Source: Lepas anatifera (lineage: Eukaryota; Arthropoda; Thecostraca; Lepadidae). From it: DNA of 64,000 nucleotides. Both the position numbers and the translations under genes were made by a program. The stretch spans positions 1 through 64,000 of the forward strand of contig JAOTON010001493.1 of NCBI GenBank assembly GCA_034440635.1, given 5' to 3'. Positions 8,084 to 59,689 of this stretch are shown here, piece after piece. The notes beneath the pieces were generated by a model. It was not told where the DNA came from and did not search any database. It saw only the letters and a list, made by a program, of their open reading frames with translations. Position 1 is the first letter of the stretch. Each line of letters begins with the position of its first letter.

Positions 8084-8234
8084 TTGGACAATTCTGTGTG
8101 GTCGGTTGGTATATCTGGGTGGTTGATCGGTATATCTAAATGGCTGATCCGTACATCTAAATGGCTGATCCATATATCTAAATGGCTGAACCGTATATCT
8201 GAATGGTTGATCCGTATATCTGAATGTTTGATCC

Positions 8235-8270
<36 letters not shown>

Positions 8271-8286
8271 CTGTATATATATATAA

Positions 8287-8326
<40 letters not shown>

Positions 8327-8660
8327 TTGAGCCGTATATCTATATGGCTGATCCGCATATCTGAATGGTTGATCCGTATATATGAATGGTTGATCGGTAT
8401 ATCTATATGGTTGATCCGTATATCTATATGGCTGATCCGTATATCTGAATGCTTGATCGTTATATGTATATGGTTTATCCGTATATCTGAGTGGTTGATT
8501 GGTATATCTGAGTGGTTGATGGGTAATATCTATATGGTTGATCTATATATCTGGATGGTTGATCGGTATATCTATATGGTTGATCGGTACATCTGAATAG
8601 TTGATCTGTATGTCTATATGGTTGATCTGTATATCTGAATGGTTGATTGATACCTCATAT
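8084..8660. repeat. 21-bp minisatellite with internal TA microsatellite
   Basis: Units of the type TGGTTGATCCGTATATCTGAA repeat about every 21 bp. The array is interrupted at 8237-8322 by TA runs separated by AACTG. Since 21 is divisible by 3, both strands are open over the array, but nothing suggests it encodes protein. Confidence 0.9.
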
Positions 8661-11351: not shown

Positions 11352-12126
11352 TGAGGAGCTCTGTCGACGGTGACACTGTATGTAAGCAGGAGAGGAGCTC
11401 TGTCGACATTGTCACTGTTGAAATGTAAGCAGTAGAGGAGCTCTGTCGACAGTGACACTGTTGAAATGTAAGCAGGAGAGTAGCTCTGTCGACAGTGACA
11501 CTGTTGAAATGTAAGCAGGAGAGGAGCTCTGTCGACATTGACACTGTTGAAATGTAAGCAGAAGAGGAGCTCTGTCGACATTGACACTGTTGAAATGTAA
11601 GCAGGAGAGGAGCTCTGTCGACAGTGACAATGTTGAAATGTAAGCAGTAGAGGAGCTCTGTCGACAGTGACACTGTTGAAATGTAAGCAGGAGAGGAGCT
11701 CGGTCGACAGTGACACTGTTGAAATGTAAGCAGGAGAGGAGCTCGGTCGACAGTGACACTGTTGAAATGTAAGCCGGAGAGGAGCGCGGTCGACAGTGAC
11801 ACTGTTGAAATGTAAGCAGGAGAGGAGCTCTGTCGACATTGACACTGTTGAAATGTAAGCAGGAGAGGAGCTCTGTCGACGGTGACACTGTTGAAATGTA
11901 AGCAGGAGAGGAGCTCGGTCGACATTGACACTGTTGAAATGTAAGCAGGAGAGGAGCTCTGTCGACGGTGACACTGTTGAAATGTAAGCAGGAGAGGAGC
12001 TCTGTCGACATTGACACTGTTGAAATGTAAGCAGGAGAGGAGCTCTGTCGACATTGACACTGTTGAAATGTAAGCAGGAGAGGAGCTCTGTCGACATTGA
12101 CACTGTTGAAATGTAAGCAGGAGAGA
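11352..12126. repeat. 43-bp minisatellite, about 18 copies
   Basis: GAGCTC recurs at 11395, 11438, 11524 and onwards in exact 43-bp steps to 12083. Each unit holds GAGCTCTGTCGAC, the near-palindrome ACAGTGACACTGT and GAAATGTAAGCAGG. Because 43 is not a multiple of 3 and no minus-strand frame has a stop, all three minus frames are open for more than 250 codons. This is a by-product of the repeat, not evidence of a protein. Confidence 0.97.
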
Positions 12127-15432: not shown

Positions 15433-15830
15433 TATCACCTGCCGCCCCATCCTTATATTTCTAAAAGCAGCTTTCTGCCACTAAAAATTTTTCAGTGCGA
15501 AACATACAGATAATATTGTCGCCTCCGCATGACCAATGGTCCTATTACAAGTGCTGATATTACCTGTCACCCAGAATCGTGTTCTTCCTGGAAAAACTAC
15601 TGGTTAAAACAATTCAGACCTAAATATAGTACCAAAGCAATTTTGACTGCCTGAACATAAAAAATGTTACAAAAAATTGAATAGCTTAAGATGCTTATTC
15701 GGTAAAAATCCTACGCGACCCATACAAGCCTAACATGAGAAAAACAGACCATTATGGTTCCTAAAGAAGCCAAATGTCCACTTTCACTCCCACCATGCCC
15801 TACGTACCGTCTTCTTGCTTTCGTATTCAA
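15433..15830. other. No feature recognised
   Basis: Unique-looking DNA. No gene or repeat supported. Confidence 0.5.
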
Positions 15831-16290
15831 TGACCCGTTCCCTCCGGTCGCGCGTGGTCGAGACAGTGGGCTCCATCTGATCTCTGCAAAACAAACAGCA
15901 TCATTCATGCTCAATGACCTGTTCCCTCCGGTCGTGGAGACACTGGGCTCCATCTGATCTCTGCAAAACAAACAGCATCATTCATGCTCAATGACCTGTT
16001 CCCTCCGGTCGTGGAGACACTGGACTCCATCTGATCCCTGCAAAACAAACAGCATCATTCATATTCAGTGACCTGTTCCCTCCGGTCGTGGAGACACTGG
16101 GCTCCATCTGATCTCTGCAAAACAAACAGCATCATTAATACTCAATGACCTGTTCCCTCCGGTCGTGGAGACACTGGGCTCCATCTGATCCCTGCAAAAC
16201 AAACAGCATCATTCATACTCAACATTCATACTCAATGACCTGTTCCCTCCGGTCGTGGAGACACTGGACTCCGTCTGATCCCTGAAAAAA
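15831..16290. repeat. 77-bp minisatellite, 6 copies
   Basis: GTTCCCTCCGGTCG starts at 15837, 15921, 15998, 16075, 16152 and 16242. The 77-bp steps are exact in the middle of the array. The first step is 84 bp (extra CGCGTGG) and the last is 90 bp (extra 13-bp duplication of AACATTCATACTC). Confidence 0.95.
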
Positions 16291-28555: not shown

Positions 28556-29420
28556 TCTGACGGTTGATAAGGCGCTGGATGCACTTCCCCGTGACAGTTG
28601 ACAAGGCAATGACTGCACTCCCCGCGACGTTTGGCAAGGCGCTGACCGTACTCCTGGTGACATTTGACAAGGCTCTGACTGCACTCCCGATGACATTTGA
28701 CATGACACTGACTGCACTCCCCGTGACAGTTGACAAGGTCCTAACTGTACTCCTGGTGACAGTTGACAATGTCCTGACTATACTCCCGGTGACAGTTAAC
28801 AAGGCACTGGTCGTACTCCTGGTGACATTTGACAAGGCACTAACTGTACTCCCGGTGACATTTGAAAAGGCGCTGACTGCACTCCTGGTGACATTTGACA
28901 AGGCGCTGACTGCACTCCTGGTGACAGTTGACACAGCGCTGTCTACACTCCCGGTGACAGTTGACAATGCGCTGTCTGCACTCCCCGTGACAGTTGACAA
29001 GTCCCTGGATATACTCCCGGTGACAGTTGACAAGACACTGACCGTACTCCTGGTGACATTTGACAAGGCACTGACTGTAGTCCCGGTGACATTTGACAAG
29101 GCGCTGACTGCACTCCTGGTGACAGTTGACACAACGCTGTCTACACTCCCGGTGACAGTTGACAATGCGCCGTCTGCACTCCCGTGACAGTTGACAATGC
29201 GCTGTCTGCACTCCCCGTGACAGTTGACAAGTCCCTGGCTATACTCCCGGTGACATTTGACAAGGCGCTGGCTGTCCTCCCGGTGGCAGTTGACAAGGCA
29301 CTGGCCGTACTCCTGGTGACATTTGACAAGGCGCTATCTGCACTCCCCGTGAAGTTGACAAGGCGCTGACTGTACTCTCCGTGACAGCTAACAAGGCGCT
29401 GGATACGCTCCCCTGACGAT
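28556..29420. repeat. 33-bp minisatellite, about 26 copies
   Basis: The unit is GTGACAGTTGACAAGG then CGCTGACTGCACTCC-type sequence, repeating every 33 bp. Because 33 is 11 codons, both strands stay open for 207 codons and give an 11-residue repeat (VTVDKALTALP-like on plus). No start context, splice sites or known domain, so I read it as a minisatellite. Positions 27884-28555 before it show no feature. Confidence 0.93.
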
Positions 29421-42129: not shown

Positions 42130-42311
42130 TCAGTGGCGCTTTACAAATTGGACGCTGAAAGGAACCGGAGCAACCACCAGGCCTGTGGAAGCTACAATCT
42201 GCGGCGGCTTCTGGCCGCCTGGCGGCCGAACTTCGAAGCTGTGAAGGACGTTGGCGATGAAGAGGAAGCTCTCTTGACGCGCCAGGGACTCCCCCATGCA
42301 CACTCGCTTCC
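42130..42311 (-). CDS. P450 last exon, residues 368-427 and stop
   Basis: Completes the haem loop FGIGKRVCMGE with C372 as the axial thiolate ligand, followed by SLARQESFLFIANVLHSFEV (L-helix) and the C-terminal VAPVPFSVQF strand. It ends with the TGA at 42130-42132. Acceptor GGTCTGCAG before GGAAGCG. 182 bp. The GKRVCMGESLAR wording is typical of arthropod CYP2-clan enzymes. Confidence 0.96.
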
Positions 42312-42825: not shown

Positions 42826-42898
42826 CTATTCCGAACGGCACGAGGTGTTTGTCGGCCACAAACTTCCCCTCAAAAATAAAACGTTCGGGCCGAAACGC
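42826..42898 (-). CDS. P450 exon, residues 344-367
   Basis: AFRPERFIFEGKF includes the PERF motif (347-350). LVPFGIG starts the haem-binding loop. Acceptor TTTCCGCAG before GCGTTTC, donor GAATAG before GTGAGAA. 73 bp, phase 0 to 1, so the haem loop is split between this exon and the next. Confidence 0.95.
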
Positions 42899-43217: not shown

Positions 43218-43300
43218 CTCAGGATCTCCCCAGTGCCTCTCATCGTAGTGGATGGCGTTGACGTTCATACTGATCCACGTGTCCTTCGGAATAGTGTATC
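43218..43300 (-). CDS. P450 exon, residues 316-343
   Basis: [20 protein letters not shown] and RHWGDPE form the beta-sheet and meander lead-in typical of CYP2. The acceptor is CTCTCGCTCAG before GATACAC; the polypyrimidine tract is a CT microsatellite of about 290 bp. Donor CCTGAG before GTAACGTG. 83 bp, phase 1 to 0. Confidence 0.95.
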
Positions 43301-43597
<297 letters not shown>

Positions 43598-44354: not shown

Positions 44355-44514
44355 CAGCCACTTGGATATCCTCCATGGCCCGATGTGGCACAGCCTGCGG
44401 CAGGGCGGCGCTGCGTCGCATGGTCTCCGCCAGCACGGCCTCCGTGTAGGGCAGCTGACTGCGGTGTCGCATCTCCACCCGCTGTCCCGCTCCCACCACC
44501 GAGTCCAGCTCCGC
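44355..44514 (-). CDS. P450 exon, residues 263-315 (K-helix)
   Basis: AELDSVVG, LPYTEAVLAETMRR and VPHRAMEDIQVAG cover the J-K helices. The ExxR pair is E292-R295, which stabilises the haem core in all P450s. Acceptor GGTTGCCAG before GCGGAG, donor GTGGCTG before GTAATAT. 160 bp, phase 0 to 1. The acceptor is the last of three 30-bp tandem units. Confidence 0.96.
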
Positions 44515-44610
44515 CTGGCAACCCCAGTCAGCTGATCACGTCATCTGGCAACCTCAGTCAGCTGATCACATCATCTGGTAACCCCAGTCAGCTGATCGCA
44601 TCATTTGGAA
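44515..44610. repeat. 30-bp repeat ×3 over a P450 acceptor
   Basis: CTGGCAACC/CTGGTAACC recurs at 44515, 44545 and 44575. On the coding strand every unit ends GGTT(G/A)CCAG, i.e. carries its own AG acceptor. Use of the next upstream acceptor would bring in an in-frame TGA. Confidence 0.93.
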
Positions 44611-44724
44611 ACCAGGATCTGTGAGATACATACCACAAATACTGAGAACTAAGTATCTTTTAGCTGCTGGTGCGGCCTTACACTGTAATGATATTTCCAT
44701 TAGCTGAACTTCTCCGTTTAGAAT

Positions 44725-45600: not shown

Positions 45601-45650
45601 CCACTGACCTGCGTGCGTACCCGCCGCTGTGCACCACTAACCTGAACGCG
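45601..45650. repeat. 33-bp imperfect duplication of a P450 donor
   Basis: CCACTAACCTG (45634) and CCACTGACCTG (45601) are the inverse of CAGGTTAGTGG and CAGGTCAGTGG. Both are usable donors 33 bp apart. Confidence 0.75.
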
Positions 45651-45763
45651 TGCTTGCGCGTCGCGGTTACACAGCATGTAGAGCATAGCCCACTCTATTG
45701 TGGTACTGGTCGTCTCACTCCCCGCCAGGAACAGGTCCTGCAGCAGGGCGTACAGCTCCCACT
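45642..45763 (-). CDS. P450 exon, residues 222-262 (I-helix)
   Basis: Encodes the oxygen-activating I-helix: DLFLAGSETTTSTIEWAM, with AGSETT at 235-240 and T240 in the catalytic threonine region. Acceptor TCTGTTGCAG before AGTGGG, donor GTTCAG before GTTAGTGG. 122 bp, phase 1 to 0. The acceptor is duplicated in a 20-bp repeat. The donor is duplicated 33 bp downstream (CAGGTCAGTGG); its use would add 11 codons in frame without a stop. Confidence 0.95.
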
Positions 45764-45845
45764 CTGCAACAGAGGCCAGGTCACTGCAACAGAGGCCAGG
45801 TCACACCGCTTATCTTACCTGCTGGCCGCACTCTGCAACAGAGGA
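45764..45845. repeat. 20-bp repeat over a P450 acceptor, plus pseudo-exon
   Basis: CTGCAACAGAGGCCAGGTCA at 45764 and 45784, with a third partial copy at 45833. On the coding strand each gives CCTCTGTTGCAG. Between the second and third lies a 14-nt segment bounded by GTTGCAG and CAGGTAAGAT, i.e. with both an acceptor and a strong donor. Confidence 0.93.
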
Positions 45846-48975: not shown

Positions 48976-49087
48976 CATCAAATGCATCCGACTTGTTTCC
49001 TTCCAGGTCACTGCGAATCAGGAAGTGGTCCAGGAAGTCTCGAGGTGACGTCACATCCAGGCTCGCGCGGTGCTCCTCAATCTGAGT
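48976..49087 (-). CDS. P450 exon, residues 185-221
   Basis: TQIEEHRASLD then SPRDFLDHFLIR is the CYP2 G/H-helix segment (family pattern EH..., PRDFID). Acceptor TTTAATTTCCAG before ACTCAG, donor TTTGATG before GTGAGTG. 112 bp, phase 0 to 1. No tandem repeat at its edges, though a 25-bp minisatellite lies about 460 bp upstream. Confidence 0.95.
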
Positions 49088-50154: not shown

Positions 50155-51660
50155 TTGATATGTTTATTTGTTTATGTTTATTTGTTTATTAAACATAATC
50201 ACCAACAGGCTGATGCCCACCAACAGGTGAAGTCAGGTATTAAAACTCTCTCACCAAAAACTAACACATACACATAAACATGTCCGAAACACCCTAGTGC
50301 TAAAAACATACAAATGAGTAAAATGGGTGCTGTAAAATAAAGTTATTAAAATAGTTTGAGCTCATTCCCTCTTCATATATTTGGTGCACATATACCTTGG
50401 TGACGTCACACTCTTAGGTCCCTTATGTACTCCACAACGCGAGCTCTAAAAATGCTATAGGTATCAACAAAAAAATCGGAGTTGATCATGGTCAAAAACC
50501 TATTAGCAGATTTTGGTATCCGGCACAGAAACCCCGAGGCAACCGTGTTTACACGGCCGCGTGGCTCGGCGAAAAGTCGCAGGTTGCGGGTGGAGCGGGG
50601 TGGAACATGAAGGCCAAAACAGTTCAGAAGAGTTTGAGAGGAAATTTTTGAGAAAATATTGCTTTCAGAAACAGAAGATCGTGTTGAACTCTCCTTGCAG
50701 CAAGAGACTGGACGCCGAAATGCCGAAGAAGTGAATGGTAATTCAAAGTGCCGCAAGACTGAGAAGTATGAGAATTTAGCCACATCAAGAATTTGTGTTG
50801 TACCCGCTCGACCCGTTCGGCATGGGATTTGGCTACACCAGCCCAGACTACACTACCGAACTCCAAAACAGACCGAACGTTCGCGTTATATGTTGTGAGC
50901 AGTGTTTTGGTATTGAAATTTGTTGAGCGCAGGCCGGTTTGAAAAGATCGAATTAGCAGTCCTAGTGATTTGTTGGCCTGTCGTGTTATGCCAGAAACGT
51001 GGGATGAGAAATTCAGTTTTGAGTCAATGATTATTCCTAAGTCACGGATTTCTTCAACAGACTCTAGGCGAGTGTTTCCGATGTAGTACGTTGTCTGGAC
51101 CGGTGTCCGCCTGAGGGTCAACGTAATGTTTTTTACATTTGGATGGGTTAAGTTTTAGACCCCATCTGACGGACCACTGATGCAGGTGGCTCAGGTCCCT
51201 CTGCAGCAAGAGTCCGTCAGATGGCTGCTTGATTGTTCGAAAAATTTTGGCATCATCTGCATAACGGAGACAACTAGACTCAATTTCAGCCGGAAGATCG
51301 TTGATGAAGAGTGCGAACAAGAGAGGAGCATTTAGAGAGCCCTCAGGCACCCCTGAGCTGACGTTTTTCCACTCTGAGGTTTTTCCATTAAGAACGACCC
51401 TCTGGCGGCGGTCGGAGAGATACGAGATAAACCAATTTAGGGCTGAATCTTTCAAATGATAGGAATTTCGGAGTTTGTAGATCAGGAGTTTGTGATTGAC
51501 ACTTTGAAAAGCGGCCGAGAAATCTGTGTAAATAGCGTCCGTCTGGTATCCATCCGAAACGGCCTTCCACGCCGAATCAAGAAAAACAGACAGATTGCTG
51601 ACGCACGACCTGCGAGGAACGAATACTGCCTCAACTGCCTCTTAAAATCGTAGGCTGATT
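50155..51660 (-). mobile_element. 5'-truncated LINE (CR1/Jockey-like) in P450 intron
   Basis: Minus-strand reading gives reverse-transcriptase motif A (IYTDFSAAFQSVNHKLL, about 51530-51480), the GVPEGS..PLLFALFINDLP block (about 51345-51290) and the catalytic YADDAKIF (about 51265-51240). The C-terminal region follows, with VVWAGVAKSH, RVQHKFLMWL, RRVQHDLL, CFGLHVPPRSTRN and FRARVVEYIRDL, ending at the stop near 50406. The 3' UTR ends with GTTGGTGATTATGTTTAATA and AAACAAATAAACA units (50195-50155), matching the tail style of the LINE at 1-862. A 1-bp insertion in an A-run near 51125 and a second frame break near 50650 make it inactive. Same orientation as the P450 gene. Confidence 0.88.
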
Positions 51661-52367: not shown

Positions 52368-52477
52368 CTCACCCTGAAGAGCTGCACCAGCTCGTCTTTG
52401 GCCGTGACGACGCCGGCGTAAACTCACCCTGAAGAGCTGCACCAGCTCGTCTCTGGCCGTGACGACGCCGGCGTAAA
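52368..52477. repeat. 55-bp tandem duplication of P450 exon end and donor
   Basis: CTCACCCTGAAGAGCTGCAC starts at 52368 and 52423. The two units differ by very few bases. Each contains the coding end (AGCTGGTGCAGCTCTTCAGG in inverse) and the GTGAG donor. Confidence 0.97.
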
Positions 52478-52608
52478 GGTCTCCGCCCAGTGGTCTCCAA
52501 ACGGCGCCGGCGAACGTCCTCACTATCCCGCTGAGGTCCGAGGAGCTTCTCAGGAAACTCTGCAGCGCCCGCATGATGATTTGAATACCACTGTCGTCAT
52601 GCTTGAAT
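52428..52608 (-). CDS. P450 exon, residues 124-184
   Basis: Begins FKHDDSGIQIIMRALQ, the family's F-helix lead-in, and ends with DELVQLFR. Acceptor TCCCTCGGCAG before ATTCAAG, donor CTTCAGG before GTGAGTT. 181 bp, phase 2 to 0. A 55-bp tandem duplication repeats the exon end and the donor. A second donor of equal quality lies 55 bp downstream (last exon base would be 52373) and would shift the frame. Confidence 0.95.
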
Positions 52609-53948: not shown

Positions 53949-54624
53949 TTACTTCTCAATTAACCCTTCATTGTGGGAGTGGCTCGTTCGGAATGGCTGG
54001 AACGCAGTTTCCCTGATAAGTCTCTTGATGGCTTTAGTCAGGCTTCGACCCCAAAAGCCAAACAAGCTATAACTTGAAAACATTAAAAAGCTGCCGGAAT
54101 CTTGCCTAAAAAATGACATTATTTTAAACGAGAATAACAAATGCCCACACCGGGACCTACATTGTATAAGTGTGTAGCTGCAAGCTTCGAGACGTCTGTG
54201 GCTTTCTGGCCAGAAAAATCGGATCCAGCTGGTCCTAACAACATGGTGAGATTGGTTTAAAACGATGTGTTTTGAAAACACGAATTTCCACGCAAATCCT
54301 TAAGTCGGCACGAAGGCACCATCAAAACCAGCTAGCAGAGCATATCGAATGATTGGGGAAGTGTCCTCTTTACATATGTGACATTATTAGGTCGGCATCC
54401 GACGACCAAATAAAAAGTTGTAACGGTTTTAGTGAGTGCATGTCCTGCCAATAGTTGACGGTTGAGGCTACGCCCCGGCCGCCAGGCGGCGCACACCGGC
54501 AAAGCATGAAGCACAAATCTGATAATGTACCTAAGTATTAAATAAAACAAACAGGAGCATCAATACAAGAAGGGGGCCAGGGGACTCACCTGCACTAGTC
54601 TAAAGCATCACTGGTTTAATGGAA

Positions 54625-56492
54625 GTTTTCCAGTGACCATCTCCCACAGTACGTTCTACCCACTGTTTCCCGGTAACGATCTCCCACAGTACGTTGTACC
54701 CACTGTTTCCCGGTGATTGACTCCCACAGTACGTTGTACCCACTGTTTCCCGGTGATTAACTCCCACAGTACGTTGTACCCACTATTTCCCGGTGATTAG
54801 CTCCCACAGTACGTTGTACCCACTATTTCCCAGTGACGATCTCCCACAGTACGTTGTACCCACTGTTTCCCGGTTAACTCCCACAGTACGTTGTACCCAC
54901 TATTTCCCAGTGACGATCTCCCACAGTACATTGTACCCACTGTTTCCGGTTTTTAACTCCCACAGTACGTTGTACCCACTATTTCCCAGTGGCGATCTCC
55001 CACAGTACGTTGTACCCACTGTTTCCCGGTTAACTCCCACAGTACGTTGTACCCACTATTTCCAGTGACGATCTCCCACAGTACATTGTACCCACTGTTT
55101 CCGGTTTTTAACTCCCACAGTACGTTGTACCCACTATTTCCCAGTGGCGATCTCCCACAGTACGTTGTACCCACTGTTTCCCGGTGATTAACTCCCACAG
55201 TACGTTGTACCCACTGTTTCCCGGTGACGATCTCCCACAGTACGTTGTACCCACTGTTTCCCAGTGACCATCTCCCACAGTACGTTGTACCCACTGTTGC
55301 CCGGTGATTAACTCCCACAGTACGTTGTACCCACTGTTTCCCGGTGATTAACTCCCACAGTACGTTGTACCCACTATTTCCCGGTGACGATCTCCCACAG
55401 TACGTTGTACCCACTGTTTCCCGGTTATTAACTCCCACAGTACGTTGTACCCACTATTTCCCAGTGACGATCTCCAACAGTACGTTGTACCCACTGTTTC
55501 CCGGTTATTAACTCCCACAGTATGTTGTACCCACTATTTCCTAGTGACGATCTCCCACAGTACGTTGTACCCACTGTTTCCCGGTTATTAACTCCCACAA
55601 TACGTTGTACCCACTGTTTCCCGGTAACGATCTCCCACAGTACGTTGTACCCACTATTTCCCGGTTATTAACTCCCACAGTACGTTGTACCCACTATTTC
55701 CCAGTGACGATCTCCCACAGTACGTTGTACCCACTGTTTCCCGGTTATTAACTCCCACAGTACGTTGTACCCACTGTTTCCCAGTGACCATCTCCCACAG
55801 TACGTTGTACCCACTGTTGCCCGATGATTAACTCCCACAGTACGTTGCACCCACTGTTTCCCGGTGATTAACTCCCACAGTACGTTGTACCCACTGTTTC
55901 CCGGTGATTAACTCCCACAGTACGTTGTACCCACTATTTCCCAGTGACGATCTCCCACAGTACGTTGTACCCACTGTTTCCCGGTGATTAACTCCCACAG
56001 TACGTTGTACCCACTATTTCCCAGTGACGATCTCCCACAGTACGTTGTACCCACTGTTTCCCGGTGATTAACTCCCACAGTACGTTGTACCCACTATTTC
56101 CAGTGACCATCTCCCACAGTACGTTGTACCCACTGTTGCCCGATGATTAACTCCCACAGTACGTTGACCCACTGTTTCCCGGTGATTAACTCCCACAGTA
56201 CGTTGTACCCACTATTTCCCGGTGACGATCTCCAACAGTACGTTGTACCCACCGTTTCCCGGTTATTAACTCCCACAGTATGTTGTACCCACTATTTCCC
56301 GGTAACGATCTCCCACAGTACGTTGTACCCACTGTTTCCCGGTTATTAACTCCCACAATACGTTGTACCCACTGTTTCCCGGTAACGATCTCCCACAGTA
56401 CGTTGTACCCACTATTTCCCGGTTATTAACTCCCACAGTACGTTGTGCCCACTGTTTCCCGGTAACGATCTCCCACAGTACGTTGTACCCAC
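54625..56492. repeat. 40-bp array made of P450 exon end plus donor, about 47 copies
   Basis: The unit on the minus strand is AACGTACTGTGGGAGATCGT then CACCGGGAAACA then GTGGGTAC. This is identical in order to the last 32 bp of the exon 56493-56608 plus its first 8 intron bases. Two unit types tend to alternate: one exon-like (GAGATCGTC), the other with GAGTTAATAAC or GAGTTAATCAC, giving an 80-bp higher-order period in places. A few units are 36-39 bp. The GT of the donor is kept in all copies I checked. Confidence 0.97.
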
Positions 56493-56608
56493 TGTTTTCC
56501 GGTGACGATCTCCCACAGTACGTTGAGCACGTGGACGTTGAAGAAGCTGTTGACTTCTACCGTCTGGCCGGGCTCCAGACAGTGTAGGCGACCTAGCAGC
56601 TGCGTAAC
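56493..56608 (-). CDS. P450 exon, residues 86-123 (D/E-helix)
   Basis: Encodes VTQLLGRL, GQTVEVNSFFNVHVLNVLW and EIVTGKQ, the D-E helix stretch of CYP2 proteins (family pattern N-LW-I-G-RF). Acceptor TTATTTCAG before GTTACG. The donor is AAAACA before GTGGGTAC; the split codon CA|A gives Gln, followed by FKHDD in the next exon. The last 32 bp of this exon and the first 8 bp of its intron form the unit of the long 40-bp array that follows at once. Confidence 0.95.
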
Positions 56609-57951: not shown

Positions 57952-58064
57952 CTGATGTTGAACAACATCTTCCAGGGATGACTTTCCCATGCCCAGGTCG
58001 CGGAGATGGTGCAGGGCGAAGCGTCGCTGGGCGGACCAGACGGGACCTTCGTTCAATAACACGC
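57952..58064 (-). CDS. P450 exon, residues 48-85 (C-helix)
   Basis: Encodes the C-helix WSAQRR motif (W57..R61, which contacts a haem propionate in the family) followed by FALHHLRDLGMGKSSLE, a hallmark of the CYP2 clan. Acceptor TGCCCCCAG before GCGTGTT, donor CATCAG before GTGTGTA. 113 bp, phase 1 to 0. No tandem repeat at its edges. Confidence 0.95.
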
Positions 58065-59405: not shown

Positions 59406-59556
59406 GAGGGTCAGGCCAGATGCCTTTTTATCCCTCCCTGAATCCGCCTCTGTCAGAGTATACCTCTCAGCTGCAGGTTGGGGTAGGGAGAGGGTGGGCC
59501 AGACGCCACTGTCATCCCTCCCTGGATCCGCCCCTGTCAGGGTATACCTCTCAGTT
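59406..59556. repeat. 84-bp tandem duplication over a P450 donor
   Basis: GTATACCTCTCAG ends at 59470 and again at 59554. The upstream parts (GTCAGGCCAGATGCC and GTGGGCCAGACGCC, ATCCCTCCCTG, TCCGCC(T/C)CTGTCAG) are collinear. The unit includes the last bases of the exon (CTGAGAG in inverse) and the GTATAC donor. Confidence 0.9.
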
Positions 59557-59689
59557 TGCCGTGAGTCCTCAGTTTCGTGTACTCCAGGTGGGGTCTGCCG
59601 GAGGCGGCGGCCTTGTTGAGCACCTCCCTCGCTATCTCGTAGTCGTTGATCATCACTGAAGGGTGGCCCAGTAAGTAGTAGCCGATTAT
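59548..59689 (-). CDS. P450 exon (first seen), residues 1-47
   Basis: Encodes the region after the hinge: LLGHPSVMINDYEIAREVL is the usual CYP2 beta-1/B-helix segment. The acceptor is TCGGCAG before ATAATCGG; the donor is CTGAGAG before GTATACC. It starts in phase 0 and ends in phase 1. The upstream exon is not in view. The donor region is tandemly duplicated (84-bp step), with CTGAGAGGTATAC present again 84 bp into the intron. Confidence 0.9.

Follow-up and report, generated by a model that had tools for sequence, protein, structure and literature searches.

The 64-kb window, that is, the whole stretch of DNA analysed here, contains ten exons of a cytochrome P450 gene on its minus strand, and the 183-kb contig carries two further exons outside the window. 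Joined at GT/AG borders, the 12 exons form a single open frame that codes for 490 residues and ends in a stop, and the gene is intact; the in-window part accounts for 427 aa. From the 5′ end, exons E1 (73277-73193, minus strand) and E2 (71451-71348, minus strand) are located outside the window, followed within it by E3 (59548-59689), E4 (57952-58064), E5 (56493-56608, 116 nt), E6 (52428-52608, 181 nt), E7 (48976-49087), E8 (45642-45763, encoding the I-helix with AGSETTS), E9 (44355-44514), E10 (43218-43300), E11 (42826-42898) and E12 (42130-42311), the last of which includes the stop codon and a Pfam p450 match. By sequence, the product is a cytochrome P450, and a CYP2-like one by PDB match: Pfam PF00067 (p450) matches occur on exons of the gene, and the top PDB match of the joined model is CYP2D6 (E = 2.8e-67, residues 6-427 of 427), alongside other family-2 enzymes. 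Short exon fragments alone gave no PDB or Pfam match, whilst the joined model did. In a protein search, the closest protein is P0001, a P450 from the barnacle Amphibalanus amphitrite, at 58 % identity, and the next comes from Pollicipes, at 47 %. Since barnacles head these matches, the source is most likely a barnacle, and an origin in amphioxus is rejected.

Some other P450 sequences of the same genome are built differently. At least 25 of the 98 scored matches are intronless, one open frame covering almost all of the query, at 28-38 % identity (e.g. C1449:5863993-5865252 and C979:5368184-5386693), whereas the gene in the window is divided into 12 exons. Neither a second allele nor a close paralogue is found among these 98 scored matches, and outside its own contig none of them exceeds 43 % identity, the set being a lower bound in both respects.

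With regard to other content, no second gene was detected by Pfam in any minus-strand frame of the window or in the plus-strand frames of positions 1-44,800. The matches besides P450 and reverse transcriptase are SHMOOSE (E = 0.0087), PFF1_TM (0.054) and Glyco_hydro_38N (0.12). A reverse transcriptase fragment (RVT_1, Pfam, E = 2.6e-20) resides in the E6-E7 intron at 51123-51623 (minus strand), and upstream of the first P450 exon there is a retroelement with reverse transcriptase, RNase H and integrase domains (L010, C1402:74001-84000).

A minisatellite spanning the E5 donor

At the end of E5, TRF identifies a single array of 1.9 kb (54625-56525, minus strand) with a period of 40 bp, 47.8 copies, 86 % matches and a score of 2731, the first 33 bp of which (56525-56493) are exon. 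The minisatellite described in a sequence-only reading of this DNA is therefore real, although the stretch 54485-54624, which had been included in it, is not part of the repeat. The unit consists of the final 33 coding bp of E5 followed by 7 intron bp, such that the earlier view of it as an exon end plus donor holds, with a split of 33 + 7 rather than 32 + 8 bp. Read along the minus strand, the E5 end forms the first unit, after which come the donor GTGGGTA and then the further 40-bp copies, in keeping with the seamless start at the exon that had been proposed.

E5 itself, the source of the array unit, carries the acceptor ttatttcag and the donor ACA|GTGGGT, and its frame stays open into E6, the next exon downstream. 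Frame and homology point to the phase 2 GTGGGT at 56487-56492 (minus strand) as the authentic 5′ splice site. P0001 is, by eye, colinear across both the E5/E6 and the E6/E7 joins and matches the gene exon by exon in tblastn; as it continues across the E5/E6 join in this way, the donor is placed at 56492. The suggestion that a P450 exon with its donor gave rise to the unit is thus borne out by the open frame into E6 and by a colinear, 58 %-identical barnacle protein.

A total of 48 unit starts are present, with a donor in units 1-47 and a degenerate end as unit 48. Since the exon end serves as unit 1, the extra donors behind the real one number 46 (54659-56452, minus strand, first bases 56452 down to 54663) and not 47, as had been counted. 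The donor core is conserved, with GTGGG in 47/47 units and GTGGGT in 46/47; invariant positions are, however, not limited to the donor bases. The units fall into two types, A (E5-like) and B, that are distinguished at an ATCGTC/TTAATC block and that alternate along the array, adjacent units being unlike in 38 of 45 pairs, a value reached by none of 100,000 shuffles. Correspondingly, the mean identity of the 40 full-length units is 0.931 at lag 2 versus 0.878 at lag 1. Both the alternation and the lag-2 periodicity agree with the dimer-wise growth that had been envisaged, and from these patterns growth looks largely dimer-wise. Across the 1.04-Gb genome, the 22-mer bridging the unit junction has 35 exact matches, each of them within this array, and its reversed control has none.

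Amongst the 47 donors, only the exon-proximal one keeps the frame into E6 without a stop. When each of the other 46 was joined to E6 in silico, a stop followed at codon 141-146 of the in-window sequence of 427 aa, which supports the earlier expectation that later donors would truncate the protein; the in-frame TAA anticipated near 56426 is found at 56428-56426. The true donor matches a simple consensus at 6/9 positions, belongs to the weaker donors of the gene and is no stronger than its copies. A special RNA structure at the donor was considered and ruled out, as the fold at the E5 junction is no better than those of shuffles (z -0.37). Classical tests of tandem identical donors point to a preference for the intron-proximal one, in this array the last copy. 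Frame and homology nevertheless indicate use of the exon-proximal donor, and, as in exon definition, the closest donor would most likely be paired with the E5 acceptor over the 116-nt exon.

Arrays at other exon ends

A tandem-match scan (period 10-200) reveals that 5 of the 22 splice sites of the P450 gene touch an array, namely the donors of E3, E5 and E6 and the acceptors of E8 and E9. At E3, an 84-bp-period duplication (59430-59554, minus strand) contains the donor GAG|GTATAC but only about 7 coding bp; from the look of its sequence it may be transposon-related. The E6 end is covered by a 55-bp × 2 duplication (52368-52477, minus strand; TRF, 98 % matches) that comprises 50 coding and 5 intron bp, with the donors GTGAGT and GTGAGC. 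Both acceptor cases lie on the intron side only: a 20-bp × 2 duplication at E8 (45764-45804, minus strand; TRF) in which TGACCTGGCCTCTGTTGCAG appears twice, and a 30-bp × 3.3 array (44515-44613, minus strand; TRF) that ends exactly at the E9 acceptor and the copies of which end in CCAG. Use of the non-proximal copies at the E6 donor, the E8 acceptor and the E9 acceptor (two tested) leads to a stop. Under a first-AG scanning rule, the upstream copy of a duplicated acceptor would be preferred. At E10, the polypyrimidine tract consists of a simple repeat, since a (GA)n/(CT)n microsatellite, roughly 290 bp long (43303-43594), reaches the acceptor.

Five of the seven arrays in the P450 gene touch a splice site (P = 0.00016 under random placement), as do four of six when the long array is left out (P = 0.00017); these array-level tests were chosen after the repeats and the weak rotation results had been seen, and their P values are not pre-planned. 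Position-level rotation of splice sites against array coverage yields P values of 0.045-0.24, the weakness of which stems from the dominance of the single long array.

Exon ends elsewhere in the genome were sampled in the myosin-head and AMP-binding families, 66 of the 94 listed matches being hand-picked to provide 132 ends. Intron zones of equal size were taken from 57 of 58 scored stretches (L080 being left out; L081 was unscored, and L062 contains array only). Two contigs that are probably alleles, C597 and C198, were both counted. Near-identical match scores and spacing suggest that C597/C198 and C431/C1554 are haplotig pairs, in which the lengths of allelic arrays could be compared. Sampled ends are HMM match ends, with a zone from 20 outside to 10 inside, and by this measure they are not enriched for arrays: 6/132 (4.5 %; 4/92 in the first batch and 2/40 in the second) touch one, compared with 296/3762 intron zones (7.9 %; Fisher P = 0.19).

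Two of the six sampled cases span an exon end, and both are in genes with myosin-like sequence. A myosin-V-like gene (C2003; L034/L062; identified by PDB match) has an 87-bp unit × 8 across a donor, composed of the last coding bases (ending PSR), GTAGGG and intron; AGCAG|GTAGGG is retained in 8/8 copies, and at the first border read-through encounters a TAG. The other gene, also myosin-like (C2107; L079), has its array over an acceptor, with a 40-bp unit of 25 intron bp and the first 15 coding bp in 9.9 copies (TRF), and all 9 upstream acceptors found there run into a TGA after LVQLL. In both myosin arrays, as at E6, E8 and E9, the sole stop-free copy is the exon-proximal one. Exon-boundary arrays are thus present in several genes of this genome, i.e. 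the P450 gene and two myosin genes, and their sequences are unrelated. The remaining four cases (L053, L059 and L060, for which the sequence was read, and L075, known from the scan only) are intron arrays that reach, or stop slightly short of, an acceptor.

These observations bear on a reading according to which introns are so rich in arrays that some simply overlap exon ends, there being nothing special about boundaries. It concerns only why an array arose at this position, since under any such reading the exon end is the source of the unit. In its favour are the higher share of intron zones than of sampled exon ends that touch an array, and the four of six sampled cases in which an intron array merely comes up to, or near, the acceptor. 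The placement of five of seven P450-gene arrays at splice sites (P = 0.00016, with the proviso given above) speaks against it, as does the comparison of 5/22 sites in this gene with 6/132 in the sample (Fisher P = 0.0098), in which exact splice sites are set against HMM match ends. Once the E5 donor that drew attention to the gene is removed, however, 4/21 sites remain, for which P = 0.03 against the sample and P = 0.08 against intron zones, so that the gene does not clearly exceed the level of the intron zones and, site by site, is only weakly special. With evidence on both sides, this account of the placement comes close to an even chance, without quite reaching it. As sampled exon ends are not enriched, recurrence in other genes may only reflect dense intron minisatellites, and the same result suggests that arrays at boundaries may arise without any special mechanism.

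Origin and precedents

The E5 array is very probably an exon-boundary minisatellite, or 'mirage', in which a tolerated tandem duplication has grown out behind a proximal donor that continues to be used, with no function of its own likely. A tandem duplication across the border of E5 and its intron would have set a second block of 33 coding bp plus donor behind the first. Everything behind the exon-proximal donor is intron, and for this reason the coding sequence stays whole; boundary-crossing duplications are among those that do not disrupt the protein. Being harmless in this respect, the duplication is tolerated provided that splicing keeps to the exon-proximal site, and it can grow like any minisatellite. 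Its copies would then have diverged into the A and B types, and the resulting dimer been expanded, through slippage or unequal exchange, while being partly homogenised; neither a dimer intermediate nor an array-free allele is seen in the one assembly available. Homogenisation or youth could account for the retained donor sequence in the copies, selection not being demonstrable. The array is most likely without function of its own, and any leak to later donors, which in silico brings a frameshift or stop, would presumably end in mRNA decay.

Arrays of similar layout are on record, and the description of this one as unusual was therefore too strong. In Ebner et al. 2010 (PMC3087553), mirages are reported for the amphioxus globin genes BflGb6 and BflGb9, and Adh3 is cited for the term; PMC3902484 adds one in amphioxus PGBD5 and cites Adh and troponin C (TnC). 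Units of 10-72 bp are given there for Adh3 (PMC3087553, PMC3902484), and the Adh3 data together with RT-PCR of the globins suggest that splicing is normal (PMC3087553). As in the present array, with its 33 + 7 bp and 47 donors, the repeat unit of the amphioxus mirages spans the exon-intron boundary including the splice site. They differ in copy number, with 2-7 copies in the globin and PGBD5 cases quoted, against about 47 here, and in lineage, being chordate (cephalochordate), whereas the closest protein here is that of a barnacle, at 58 %; it is the taxonomic range that differs and not the mechanism. Splicing and length instability were examined in amphioxus, whilst the present array is known from its sequence.

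The human CBS gene provides a parallel in design. Its 31-bp VNTR, c.1444_1467+7(16_21), is made up of the last 24 exon and first 7 intron bp in 16-21 copies (PMC2630376, PMC1395315). This is nearly the same arrangement as the 33 + 7 bp found here, albeit in an unrelated gene and sequence, with a shorter array that is polymorphic in people. The CBS repeat is reportedly associated with enzyme activity, going by the title of a 2001 paper. A second CBS variant, 844ins68, duplicates the intron 7/exon 8 junction over 68 bp, and the distal site is strongly favoured (PMC2630376); it is harmless because this distal splice site is used. Variable tandem repeats with units of about 30 bp are also described at exon-intron boundaries of human segmental-duplication paralogues, where they alter gene structure (PMC2812944). 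In those paralogues they are linked to novel introns or retained repeats, with a mean of about 4 repeats, whereas here about 47 occur at one intron position.

Proto-splice-site duplication, a route of intron gain, offers a further comparison. Intragenic tandem duplication copies splice signals in that process, and an AG/GY motif supplies both new sites (PMC2891723). The doubled AG|GT expected of it is absent here, the exon ending in ACA|GTGGGT and the consensus unit lacking AGGT, and frame and homology put the intron at one site only. No comparable array in barnacles or crustaceans was found among the titles and opening abstracts listed from the open-licence literature. With the present case, arrays of a type on record for amphioxus and man are seen in an arthropod, apparently a new phylum; this is a striking example and not a new type of element, its approximately 47 copies being far above the globin and PGBD5 examples quoted. 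The locus is also a natural experiment on spliceosomal choice between 47 near-identical donors, since every wrong choice leaves a recognisable, stop-bearing transcript.

Alternative uses and artefacts

One could also suppose that the array acts as a splicing rheostat, in which the 46 near-equal donors divert transcripts to stop-bearing mRNAs or soak up U1, with array length tuning P450 output. Retention of GTGGG in 46/46 extra donors, each of which leads to a premature stop, would fit with this, as would a true donor that, at 6/9 to the simple consensus, is no stronger than its copies; in C. elegans, moreover, the CeRep25B intron minisatellite has been tied to splicing (PMC4039745). Set against these points, invariant unit positions also lie outside the donor, which means that no special constraint is apparent, the junction fold does not surpass shuffles (z -0.37), and the amphioxus precedents are reported as normally spliced. 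A regulatory role of this type is therefore unlikely. The broader proposition, that exon-boundary minisatellites recur in barnacle genes and that the 46-donor field of the P450 gene is a length-tunable, unproductive-splicing switch setting enzyme output between individuals, appears very unlikely.

An assembly artefact, by which the array or its length would be wrong, receives some encouragement from the resemblance of certain other contigs to haplotig pairs (C431/C1554, C597/C198). The array is, however, embedded in a continuous 183-kb contig, its units vary in an ordered, alternating fashion and its junction 22-mer is absent from the rest of the assembly, all of which makes such an error highly improbable. 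An incorrect exon model, with E5 ending elsewhere or the array being coding or a set of alternative exons, can be dismissed almost entirely: the E5 end is deduced from sequence and B units in one frame read the P450-like VLWELITGKQ, but the 40-bp unit shifts the frame with every copy, many units contain stops, the E5-E6 join is colinear with P0001 and all later donors lead to stops.

Finally, the exon-boundary minisatellite behind E5 is not the only long repeat in the window, as further minisatellites lie outside the detected genes at 8109-8649 (21 bp × 26), 11353-12125 (43 bp × 18), 15827-16289 (77 bp × 4.7) and 28558-29401 (33 bp × 26).
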